NCBI RefSeq assembly: GCF_015482585.1
Contig: NZ_CP049742.1
Location: forward strand, 2,635,001-2,699,000
Direction: 5' to 3'
Source: Mangrovibacillus cuniculi
GTDB lineage: Bacteria; Bacillota; Bacilli; Bacillales; R1DC41
DNA: 64,000 nucleotides
Numbering within the stretch: the first letter of the stretch is position 1; the number at the start of each line of letters is the position of its first letter. Below are positions 7,622 to 52,680 of this stretch, piece by piece. A program made the translations under genes and the position numbers. The notes below the pieces were generated by a model that was not told the DNA's origin, made no database searches, and saw nothing but the letters and a program-made list of their open reading frames with translations.

Positions 7622-7900
7622 AAAAAAACGCCCTTTAGGATATACCTAAAGGACGTTTTATGAACGTGTTACCACCTTTATTTGAGAACTACTCACGCAG
7701 CTCTCCTCCATAAGTACGGCCGAAGCGATACTTGTGCTTTGATGACGGACGCAACCCCGATGTAGCCTACTGTAAGTTCGGTACACAGCTCAGAGATGTA
7801 TTCACGCTAACTCCACATGGGCCTCTCAGCAACCGGCACCTTTCTGTTTGCTTCTGTTATCGCTACTGGTTCTCTTCATCGCTTTTAACGTATGAGAATA
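7622..7900 (-). promoter_or_regulatory. Tyrosine T-box leader of tyrS
   Basis: On the minus strand, the leader shows GAAGAGAACCAGTAG (AGUA-type motif of stem I), then GTGAATACATC with the tyrosine specifier TAC (7798-7800). The T-box sequence AAAGGTGGTAACACG lies at 7665-7679 and a strong terminator hairpin at 7622-7659 (CCTTTAGGTATATCCTAAAGG plus T-run). Uncharged tRNA-Tyr is expected to pair with both sites and favour the antiterminator. Element A separates the terminator from the gene. Confidence 0.93.
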
Positions 7901-12573: not shown

Positions 12574-12579
12574 TTTTAA

Positions 12580-12892
12580 CGTGTGCTCTGGAGGTATCTC
12601 TCTCCTTCTTGAACGCACGTTATCCATTTAACGTGTGCTCTAGAGGCATCTCTCTCCTTCTTGAACGCACGTTATCCATTTATCGTGTGCTCTAGAGGCA
12701 TCTCTCTCCTTTTTGAGCGCACGTTATCCATTTATCGTGTGCTCTAGAGGCATCTCTCTCCTTCTTGAGCGCACGTTATCCATTTATCGTGTGCTCTGGA
12801 GGTATCTCTCTCCTTCTTGAGCACACGTTATCCATTTATCGTGTGCTCTGGAGGTATCTCTCTCCTTCTTGAGCACACGTTATTCTTTTTTG
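12580..12892. repeat. 52-bp tandem array of hairpin-forming units, family 2
   Basis: Six units begin at 12580, 12632, 12684, 12736, 12788 and 12840, exactly 52 bp apart. In the last units CGTGTGCTC pairs with GAGCACACG, with an inner GGAG/CTCC. In the first ones the right arm is GAACGCACG or GAGCGCACG, giving G-U pairs and a mismatch. The array lies between two convergent genes. Confidence 0.95.
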
Positions 12893-13508: not shown

Positions 13509-13538
13509 TTGACAACTTCCTGGGATCACACATATAAT
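13509..13538 (+). promoter_or_regulatory. Promoter of the mpsC-like leader
   Basis: TTGACA at 13509-13514 and TATAAT at 13533-13538 with an 18-nt spacer. Transcription would start near 13545 and leave a leader of about 208 nt. Confidence 0.85.
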
Positions 13539-13663
13539 GATTTCAACGTTAAAAGTCCGAAAGATCTATGGAAACAATTCGTTTTAAAACAACTTTAGCA
13601 TTATATTCTGGTATCAGGGTACAATGAAAAAGTTTATCAAACAGGATTGAGGCCAATGTAAAT

Positions 13664-13714
13664 CGGTATATTCTTTGTTTGGTTCCACTACCAATAGGAA
13701 TATACCGTTTTTTT
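13664..13714 (+). terminator. Terminator-like hairpin in the mpsC-like leader (possible attenuator)
   Basis: CGGTATATTC (13664-13673) pairs perfectly with GAATATACCG (13698-13707), followed by seven T. An inner TTGGT/ACCAA pairing extends the structure. It stands downstream of a strong promoter and 38 nt upstream of the coding start. TATATTC also occurs at about 13602-13608 and could compete for the 3' arm. No known riboswitch consensus is evident to me. Confidence 0.8.
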
Positions 13715-13752
13715 ATACTTAATAGATCTACTAAGAACTAAGAGGTGAACGT

Positions 13753-14106
13753 ATGTCTAAAGGTGAACTAGAAAATACACTGAGTAAAGCGTTAACTCAG
13801 TGGGAAAAAGAGTATTTAGGCAGAGGTTCTGTCTTAGTAAAAACAGATATTATCCGCAATATGATAGTTGTTTTGTTGAAAGGTATATTAACACCTGCCG
13901 AAAAAGAACTGACAGAAACAAAAGAAGGCATTTTATCCGTTAAGAAAATACGCGCAGATTTAGTAGAGACTGGATCTGAACACTTAAAAAACATAGTGTC
14001 AGAAATAACAGGTATTCAAGTGACAAGTTTTTTCACAGATATCAGCACTGTAACCGGCGAACGAATTATGGTGTTTATGTTGGAAAAACCGTTAGAAACA
14101 AAATAA
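13753..14106 (+). CDS. DUF2294 / MpsC-like protein
   Basis: A 117-residue soluble protein of the DUF2294 family, now linked to MpsC of the Staphylococcus MpsABC system. The N-terminal half has the GRGSVLVKTDIIRNMIVVLLKGILTPAE segment (in parts), the C-terminal half the TGIQVTSFFTDISTVTGERIMVFML segment (in parts). MpsAB are dissolved-inorganic-carbon transporters. Here the MpsC-like gene instead precedes an SbtA-type bicarbonate transporter, which suggests a shared regulatory or assembly role in carbon uptake. GAGGTGAACGT precedes the ATG. Family assignment is good; function is inference. Confidence 0.8.
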   Translation: MSKGELENTLSKALTQWEKEYLGRGSVLVKTDIIRNMIVVLLKGILTPAEKELTETKEGILSVKKIRADLVETGSEHLKNIVSEITGIQVTSFFTDISTVTGERIMVFMLEKPLETK

Positions 14107-14148
14107 TCTGGTAGATACTCAAAATGCTAAAATAGCAAGTTGAAGATA

Positions 14149-14191
14149 AACCGGAAATGAGCAAGCATTAGCTTGTTTATTTCCGGTTTTT
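14149..14191 (+). terminator. Strong intrinsic terminator between the mpsC-like gene and sbtA
   Basis: AACCGGAAAT (14149-14158) pairs with ATTTCCGGTT (14179-14188), with an inner CAAGC/GCTTG, followed by five T. It sits 24 nt upstream of the sbtA start, immediately before its ribosome binding site, so it would either reduce or gate sbtA expression. Confidence 0.85.
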
Positions 14192-14214
14192 CTGCTTTTA
14201 AAGGAGGAAAAATA

Positions 14215-15201
14215 ATGGATTTAGTTATTCAAAACTTACTATCACCCGCCGTACTATTTTTCGTACTTGGAATTATTGCCGCAATGGTGAAATCGGATTT
14301 ACAATTCCCTAAAGGACTAAGTGAATTTTTAAGTATATATTTATTAATTGCTATTGGTTTAAAAGGAGGTATCGAACTTTCCACGCATAGTTTGGCAGAT
14401 GTCACGCAGCCAGTGCTCGGCGTGTTGTTTTTAGGGTTCCTGGTACCTATTATCGTACTCATTATTTGCGAGAAGCTTGGTATCGATCTAAAGAACTCCG
14501 CAGCTATAGCTGCCAGTTATGGTTCTGTCAGTATTGTGACGTTCGGTGCTGGAATTACATTTTTAGAATCTAATAATATTTCATATGAAAGTTTTATGAA
14601 TACGCTAGTAGTTTTGATGGAGAGTCCAGCAATATTTATGGCCCTATTCTTACTAAAACGCCGCGAATTATCTAGCTCTTCTACTGCTCCACAATTAGGA
14701 ATAATTTCGAAGAATGGAGATTCATCGCTTATTCGAGAGAGCTTATTTGGAAAAAGTGTATTTTTATTAGTAGGAAGTTTACTAATTGGATGGGCGTTAG
14801 GAGAGAGTGCACTACCAACTGTGAAGCCCCTATTTATCGACCTCTATGGTAGCATCCTTGTTCTATTCTTACTAGGAATGGGAATAGTAACTGGTCAACG
14901 ATTACCAGACATTTTTGCTCATGGGGTAAAATTGATTGCTCTTGGTTTAGCTTTTCCAGTCGTGTTTGGATCACTCGGTGTAATAGTCGGCTCTGTTACC
15001 GGATTATCCGTTGGAGGTATGATGTTAATGGGAGTTTTAGCAGGTAGTGCATCTTATATTGCAGCACCAGCTGCTATCCGTTCTTCTGTTCCTGAAGCTA
15101 ATCCATCCATCTATCTAGGCCTAGCACTAGGTATTACTTTCCCGTTCAACTTGATTGTGGGAATCCCTTTGTATTATCAACTTTCCTTGTTACTGGGTTA
15201 G
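14215..15201 (+). CDS. SbtA-type sodium-dependent bicarbonate transporter
   Basis: A 328-residue polytopic membrane protein with about ten hydrophobic segments, matching the SbtA family (PF05982). LLSPAVLFFVLG is at the N-terminus, then SIYLLIAIGLKGGIEL, a hydrophilic middle loop (about 145-185), and GSASYIAAPAAIRSSVPEA in the second half. SbtA proteins import bicarbonate with Na+. No SbtB-like PII gene is next to it; the MpsC-like gene takes that place. An upstream in-frame start at 14173 lies inside the terminator, so I use the ATG behind AAGGAGG. Confidence 0.88.
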   Translation: MDLVIQNLLSPAVLFFVLGIIAAMVKSDLQFPKGLSEFLSIYLLIAIGLKGGIELSTHSLADVTQPVLGVLFLGFLVPIIVLIICEKLGIDLKNSAAIAASYGSVSIVTFGAGITFLESNNISYESFMNTLVVLMESPAIFMALFLLKRRELSSSSTAPQLGIISKNGDSSLIRESLFGKSVFLLVGSLLIGWALGESALPTVKPLFIDLYGSILVLFLLGMGIVTGQRLPDIFAHGVKLIALGLAFPVVFGSLGVIVGSVTGLSVGGMMLMGVLAGSASYIAAPAAIRSSVPEANPSIYLGLALGITFPFNLIVGIPLYYQLSLLLG

Positions 15202-19194: not shown

Positions 19195-19470
19195 AAGAAG
19201 TTAAAGGTACTCTTATTCTCTTCTAGATCCTAATTTCTTTGTGCTTCGTGAGTTTAAGACCCTCTTATTCTCTCCTAGACTCTAAATTCTTTACGCTTCG
19301 TGAGTTTAAGACCCTCTTATTCTCTCCTAGACTCTAAATTCTTCACGCTTCGTGAGTTTAAGACCCTCTTATTCTCTCCTAGACTCTAAATTCTTCACGC
19401 TTCGTGAGTTTAAGACCCTCTTATTCTCTCCTAGACTCTAAATTCTTTAACCTTCGTGAGTTTAAACCAT
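19195..19470. repeat. 52-bp tandem repeat array, family 1
   Basis: TATTCTC anchors at 19214, 19266, 19318, 19370 and 19422, exactly 52 bp apart, with conserved CGTGAGTTTAAGACCCTCT and a TAGACTCTAAATTCTT variable part. The core is the same as in the array at 1-720. The right edge touches the 3' end of the GrpB gene. Confidence 0.95.
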
Positions 19471-52339: not shown

Positions 52340-52680
52340 TATGCTTTTCCACTGATATACCTAAACACATTTTTTCCTTTCTACTATACCGCTGGCGCTT
52401 CCACTGATATACCTAAACACGTTCTTCCCCTGTCTTCTATACCACGGGCGCTTCCACTGATATACCTAAACACGTTCTTCCCCTGTCTTCTATACCACGG
52501 GCGCTTCCACTGATATACCTAAACACGTTCTTCCCCTGTCTTCTATACCACGGGCGCTTCCCCTGATATACCTAAACACGTTCTTCCCCTGTCTTCTATA
52601 CCGCTGGCGCTTCCCCTGATATACCTAAACACGTTCTTCCCCTGTCTTCTATACCGCTGGCGCTTCCCCAGATTTATATT
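52340..52680. repeat. 52/53-bp tandem array, family 3
   Basis: CTGATATACC starts at 52352, 52404, 52457, 52510, 52563, 52616 and a partial copy at 52669: one 52-bp step, then 53-bp steps. The core is TAAACACGTTCTTCCCCTG. Units alternate between TACCACGGGCGC and TACCGCTGGCGC. It lies between purA and the tRNA promoter. Confidence 0.95.

Follow-up and report, generated by a model that had tools for sequence, protein, structure and literature searches.

The mpsC–sbtA locus and its genome

The window analysed in the present study is a stretch of 64,000 nt from Mangrovibacillus cuniculi (contig NZ_CP049742.1, positions 2,635,001 to 2,699,000), and the locus of interest consists of two co-directional genes, an mpsC homologue and an sbtA-type transporter gene, each preceded by an RNA element and a terminator (Table 1). 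Of the 14 promoter-like sites in the region, only this promoter exceeds a 9/12 match, and most homologous loci have one at the corresponding place before the first RNA element, R1. The leader between promoter and mpsC is 208 nt long and includes terminator 1, a perfect 10-bp stem (13664–13673/13698–13707) with a T tract to 13714, 38 nt before the mpsC ATG. The stem of terminator 2 (14148–14189) lies about 24 nt before the sbtA ATG. This layout had been described in an initial annotation made from the sequence, and its positions and distances are borne out. Terminator-like sites are enriched in the region (10, versus 3.0 ± 1.6 in shuffled sequences), and folding compared with shuffles gave z-scores of −3.6 for the leader and −6.2 for the mpsC–sbtA intergenic spacer. 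Elsewhere in the window there is a T-box leader (7646–7888, minus strand, 113.6 bits), as well as tandem arrays at 22–684, 12575–12883, 19210–19465 and 52347–52667, with differing units and a common period of 52–53 bp; the units at 12575–12883 carry inverted repeats (CGTGTGCTC...GAGCACACG).

Table 1. Features of the mpsC–sbtA locus (window coordinates).
Feature	Position	Strand	Basis
Sigma-A type promoter, TTGACA-18-TATAAT	13509–13538	+	12/12 consensus match
RNA element R1: P1a (CCGA/UCGG), NAG/AAA loop, upper core, terminator	13552–13714	+	R1 model match and covariation; no Rfam 15 match
R3, core hairpin of R1: CUUUAGC ... GAAAAAG, AG/AA internal loop	13590–13635	+	R3 model, 43.2 bits
Terminator 1; 5' arm overlaps 3' strand of P1a	13664–13714	+	Sequence; predicted mutual exclusion
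mpsC (DUF2294, YbcI type), 117 aa	13753–14106	+	PF10057, 130.8 bits, E 2.9e-38
RNA element R2: GG/CC closing pairs, NAG/AAA loop, P1b, upper hairpin	14109–14155	+	R2 model match and covariation
Terminator 2; 5' arm overlaps 3' end of R2	14148–14194	+	19-pair stem, T-rich tail; predicted exclusion
sbtA-type Na+/bicarbonate transporter gene, 328 aa (uptake inferred)	14215–15201	+	PF05982, 367 bits, E 8e-110

The MpsC match spans profile positions 2–111 of 111 and is to be compared with a curated cut-off of 23 bits, while that of SbtA exceeds its curated cut-off over 306 of 308 profile positions, and the protein also matches the solved SbtA structure 7cye by sequence (E 7.6e-27). As a control, PF10057 also gives a match in B. 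subtilis, where the gene is ybcI. The genome (3.15 Mb, of a Bacillales-type order, and the sole member of its family among those compared) contains a single gene of the SbtA family and two of the MpsC family. The second of the latter (L002, G000:C1:2940964–2941290) has a divergent TrkA-type gene about 0.5 kb away, and the models of the RNA elements found no match there. MpsB/DabA (PF10070) was not found anywhere in the genome, rather than being merely absent from the neighbourhood, and therefore the locus is not an MpsABC system. Since no alpha- or beta-carbonic anhydrase was found in the genome either, SbtA is the only candidate for the supply of dissolved inorganic carbon (DIC) that was found, in a search that left out gamma-class carbonic anhydrases and other transporters. 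No SbtB/PII protein is encoded beside sbtA within the window. The earlier description of DUF2294 next to SbtA, without MpsAB and without SbtB, thus stands, and the reading of the two genes as a bicarbonate-uptake pair is supported; bicarbonate transport, conditional read-through and RNA binding by MpsC have not been shown.

Pairing of mpsC and sbtA across Bacilli

An SbtA relative is present in 80 of 397 genomes of the order, and 80 named sbtA loci were taken from genome contigs for a neighbourhood survey. In about 73 non-redundant Bacilli loci, mostly from Bacillales and Paenibacillaceae and having an SbtA of more than about 50% identity, mpsC is directly upstream of sbtA on the same strand, which rules out a locus-specific oddity. 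At 22 more distant SbtA loci (below 50% identity and outside this group; L091, L092, L094–L113) it was never adjacent. The pair is old. Three loci lack mpsC (L017, L039 and L073), one has a relic of its end (L072) and one only its first codons (L289), yet R1 and R2 are both kept in all five. Four genomes with mpsC missing or relic beside the RNAs were checked, and each encodes MpsC elsewhere.

Two conserved RNA elements

Among homologues, sequence and structure are conserved in both spacers, which contain previously undescribed RNA elements. The R1 consensus reads CCGA-NAG-AU ... CUUUAGCA ... UGAAAAAG ... AU-AAA-UCGG, and that of R2 reads GG-NAG-AUCUUUAA ... UUAAAGAU-AAA-CC, each followed by a terminator. 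Covariance models built from homologues, including the window's own copies in training, matched the window at 13554–13674 (R1, 82.7 bits, E 6e-14) and 14109–14155 (R2, 48.3 bits, E 7e-12), with no further credible site elsewhere in it. In alignments that had not been fitted to structure, 94.4% of R2 cells were paired and 116 had changed on both sides, versus 27 in shuffles (covariation score 0.497 vs 0.197); the corresponding values for R1 were 87.8%, 106 vs 32, and 0.338 vs 0.180. Sliding the partner by 1–3 columns destroyed the signal in both elements, and structure-fitted alignments with many new sites agree on the covariation. These tests were not corrected for descent, although the slid-partner control does retain relatedness. 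The core of R1 contains invariant UUAGC and GAAAA parts, and in the R3 hairpin 12 of the 16 pairs show changes on both sides.

What R1 and R2 have in common is the NAG/AAA internal loop, which adjoins the 5' arm of the terminator and sits in a helix that excludes the terminator. The third base of the loop is G in 106/106 copies of R2 and 63/68 of R1, with mostly AAA on the opposite side, and where a locus has both elements, their loops tend to be of the same type (Fisher p 1e-4, uncorrected for descent). A terminator follows 99 of 106 R2 and 59 of 79 R1 copies. The initial annotation would have been refuted by a pairing confined to this strain or by a leader that is not conserved; neither is the case, and the present analysis goes beyond it in finding that each hairpin includes a conserved antiterminator module, the loop of which is common to both, and that the same RNAs occur before mpsAB.

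In their aptamer-like core, covarying helices and terminator expression platform the elements resemble the riboswitch and leader families of Rfam 15, but searches of the window and 27 homologous loci gave no match over R1 or R2, at gathering scores or at relaxed E-values, and a known Rfam leader is thereby ruled out. A leader peptide was also considered, in the ATGAAAAAG-like stretch of R1, and rejected: 62 copies reach a stop after 3–41 codons, most of them within 13, and a Shine–Dalgarno-like sequence lies upstream in only two copies. No paper describing R1 or R2 was found among open PMC papers.

Distribution and regulon

Of the 397 genomes of the order, 83 have a model match for R1 and 108 for R2, which also has matches in other orders of the class. 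E-values were per genome, and R2 matches weaker than about 1e-4 (e.g., L198, L201, L203, L212, L308 and L310), which have unrelated genes downstream, were treated as chance. For sites away from sbtA, sequences were retrieved and the proteins named by Pfam. The first recognised downstream gene at 126 sites was mpsA (56), mpsC (30), sbtA (25), DUF6671 (5), isocitrate dehydrogenase (4), beta-carbonic anhydrase (3) or a distant sbtA (1), with none at two. Put differently, 124 of the 126 have mpsA(B), mpsC, sbtA, beta-carbonic anhydrase, DUF6671 or isocitrate dehydrogenase as the next recognised gene. The exceptions are L185, where two identical 499-aa transposase-like ORFs on the opposite strand (L185:3527–6915) lie between R1+R2 and sbtA–sbtB, and L297, where R2 follows mpsC and mpsAB is divergent. 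Because the reference list was drawn from the same loci, this tally serves to describe the regulon and cannot count as independent evidence for it; what does stand independently is that the leaders of mpsAB and sbtA–sbtB were found by models whose training set consisted of sbtA loci alone, nearly all of them mpsC–sbtA. As the RNAs also precede mpsAB, MpsAB belongs to the same regulon.

Six architectures were seen: (a) R1–mpsC–R2–sbtA, as in the window; (b) R1–mpsC–R2–mpsAB; (c) R1 or its core, with R2 within 1–91 nt, then mpsAB(–CA)–mpsC; (d) R1+R2 before DUF6671–DUF6407–isocitrate dehydrogenase or DUF6671–IlvD; (e) R1+R2 before a distant sbtA and sbtB; and (f) R2+R2 before mpsAB. R1 lacks its own terminator in several tandem leaders, and where the rest of R1 has faded its core (R3) persists just upstream of R2. 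With the R3 model, searched in 43 loci, all 22 matches at E < 0.003 were on the strand of the target operon and in its leader. A variant of R2 without a terminator was found at L039 (L039:3915–3990), the 3' part of which seems to pair with the sbtA ribosome-binding site, so that control there may have moved to translation.

Genes for DUF6671, with or without DUF6407, occur in the regulon or beside sbtA and carbonic anhydrase at L178, L184, L189, L224 and L287, and both families are candidates for new inorganic-carbon functions. Leaders of the R1/R2 type also precede isocitrate dehydrogenase (L184, L189, L196, L197, L202 and L205) and the dihydroxy-acid dehydratase IlvD (L178 and L224).

The MpsC of the window belongs to the same Pfam family as that of the Staphylococcus aureus MpsAB/DAB system, the mpsAB genes of which are among the main targets of the RNAs, but the genome studied here has no MpsB/DabA. 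In S. aureus, mpsC is located after mpsAB, and it has been stated that the two are not adjacent outside staphylococci (PMC6689103); contrary to this, many Bacilli loci (among L174–L233) have mpsC adjacent to mpsAB. Compared with cyanobacterial SbtA–SbtB, the transporter is an SbtA homologue and distant sbtA–sbtB pairs also lie behind R1+R2 (L223), but no SbtB is found next to the sbtA of the window, and control by RNA attenuators is proposed instead.

A proposed attenuation switch

Some bases belong to both P1a and the terminator. The median probability of P1a, as calculated with ViennaRNA, is 0.96–0.97 before the 3' arm of the terminator is present and about 0 in the full element, where the terminator is favoured by a median of 6.4 kcal/mol (57 R1 copies) and 4.9 kcal/mol (100 R2 copies). 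The predicted default is therefore termination, and a binder that holds P1a would give read-through. It can be asserted with little reservation that R1 and R2 are conserved elements which attenuate the transcription of inorganic-carbon genes. The fuller reading, to which we assign a probability of roughly 0.5, is that they control a DIC supply regulon and that MpsC is most likely the factor holding P1a. According to this model, the emerging RNA would first fold an antiterminator closed by P1a (CCGA/UCGG in R1, GG/CC in R2) around the NAG/AAA loop, and once the 3' arm of the terminator has been made the terminator would win, ending transcription prematurely, unless P1a is held. MpsC, encoded between the two attenuators, would bind the loop when DIC is scarce, which is when read-through is expected for DIC uptake genes, and polymerase could then pass into mpsC and on into sbtA or mpsAB. 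It is inferred that MpsC binds, that DIC is the signal and that its scarcity switches the genes on, and there are no expression data.

Comparable arrangements are known. The E. coli bgl operon and LicT/SacY-type systems have the order terminator, regulator gene, terminator, transporter gene, and a short hairpin with internal loops (RAT) overlaps the 5' arm of the terminator and must be stabilised for read-through. The two-terminator layout around a regulator gene followed by a transporter gene is met by the locus described here, but MpsC has no match to the CAT or PRD domains, its binding to an antiterminator is an inference, the hairpins differ in sequence and loops, and the regulon is one of inorganic carbon and not of beta-glucosides or sugars. 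In the Bacillus pyr operon, attenuators lie before pyrR and between pyrR and a transporter gene, with a related RNA motif at each. The placement of R1 and R2 is alike, but protein and RNA are different, and PyrR promotes termination whereas a P1a binder would prevent it.

A candidate trans-acting factor and rival readings

It could be argued that the hairpins are ordinary constitutive or spacer terminators without a regulatory role, given that strong intrinsic terminators are present and intergenic terminators are common. This is scarcely credible when the conserved, covarying antiterminator modules reach well beyond the terminators, R1 lies between a promoter and the first gene, R2 occurs in tandem leaders directly before genes with no gene upstream, and the association with DIC genes is strict. 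A regulatory protein other than MpsC, binding the NAG/AAA loop, or processive-antitermination factors recruited by R1, would reduce mpsC to one regulon member among others; mpsC is indeed a target gene like the rest, and in many mpsAB leaders the R1 core, which adjoins the promoter, remains separate from the terminator. No other protein, however, showed so consistent a link to the RNAs as MpsC did, and the placing of a regulator between two attenuators would be left unexplained, so this possibility is considered improbable.

A more serious contender, if still an unlikely one, is that R1 and R2 form a riboswitch class in which the RNA itself binds bicarbonate/CO2 or a metabolite that signals carbon shortage, MpsC having another role; as closure of P1a excludes the terminator, such binding would switch the genes on. 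The usual criterion, a conserved and covarying aptamer-like domain coupled to an expression platform, is met to the extent that comparative data can establish it, direct ligand binding being only inferred. The covarying core of R1, with its invariant UUAGC and GAAAA parts, is kept upstream of R2 where the outer part of R1 is gone, and is missing from R2; in appearance it is closer to an aptamer than to a simple binding site for a protein; the tandem R1+R2 and R2+R2 leaders with one common terminator recall tandem aptamers, and both RNAs persist where mpsC has been lost. Yet the sign is awkward for bicarbonate, since binding should turn uptake on while bicarbonate should turn it off; MpsC is found in every genome with a strong RNA; and no bicarbonate-sensing RNA was found in the literature (open PMC papers).

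MpsC is held to be the likeliest trans-acting factor because of the bglG/pyrR-like layout, the loop common to both RNAs, and an MpsC match in 107 of 107 genomes with a strong R1 or R2, versus 182 of 290 others (Fisher p 3e-18, inflated by common descent; the score in one of the 107, G053, is only a weaker one). S. aureus needs mpsC for neither transport nor growth, and its mpsA mRNA is 1.7–2.5 fold lower in 5% CO2 (PMC6689103), a pattern more in keeping with a regulator than with a subunit of the pump. Against MpsC, the RNAs survive without an adjacent intact mpsC at five loci, many genomes with MpsC have neither RNA, and no likeness to a known RNA-binding protein was found by sequence or fold. 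PF10057 was the sole Pfam match even at E 10, and the best PDB match by sequence was no better than E 0.11. The AlphaFold2 model has a mean pLDDT of 90, but as no Foldseek match reached E 0.001 and no VIA-align match reached Z 8, nothing on function was concluded from the fold. It is the mpsC-less loci, the RNA-less genomes with MpsC, the lack of a fold clue and the aptamer-like core that hold MpsC as the binder to about even odds and keep direct sensing by the RNA in play as the lesser prospect.

Significance

Heterotrophic bacteria require bicarbonate for carboxylations. MpsAB matters for growth of S. aureus in air and for its virulence (PMC6689103), and no account of the CO2 response of these genes in Bacilli was found among open PMC papers. 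It may tentatively be suggested, with the odds somewhat against it, that R1 and R2 are the first RNAs to sense the inorganic-carbon state (bicarbonate/CO2 itself or something that directly reflects it), either unaided or together with MpsC, which would then represent a new family of RNA-binding antiterminators, and that they set inorganic-carbon supply across Bacilli. The elements represent a widespread RNA-based control whose regulon is defined and for which MpsC, a protein of unknown function, is a candidate regulator, and their leaders provide a route to new inorganic-carbon genes such as those for DUF6671 and DUF6407. They look like on/off switches of transcription and could account for the way in which such bacteria detect low CO2 and react to it, and the sensing of CO2 or bicarbonate in these organisms becomes directly testable.
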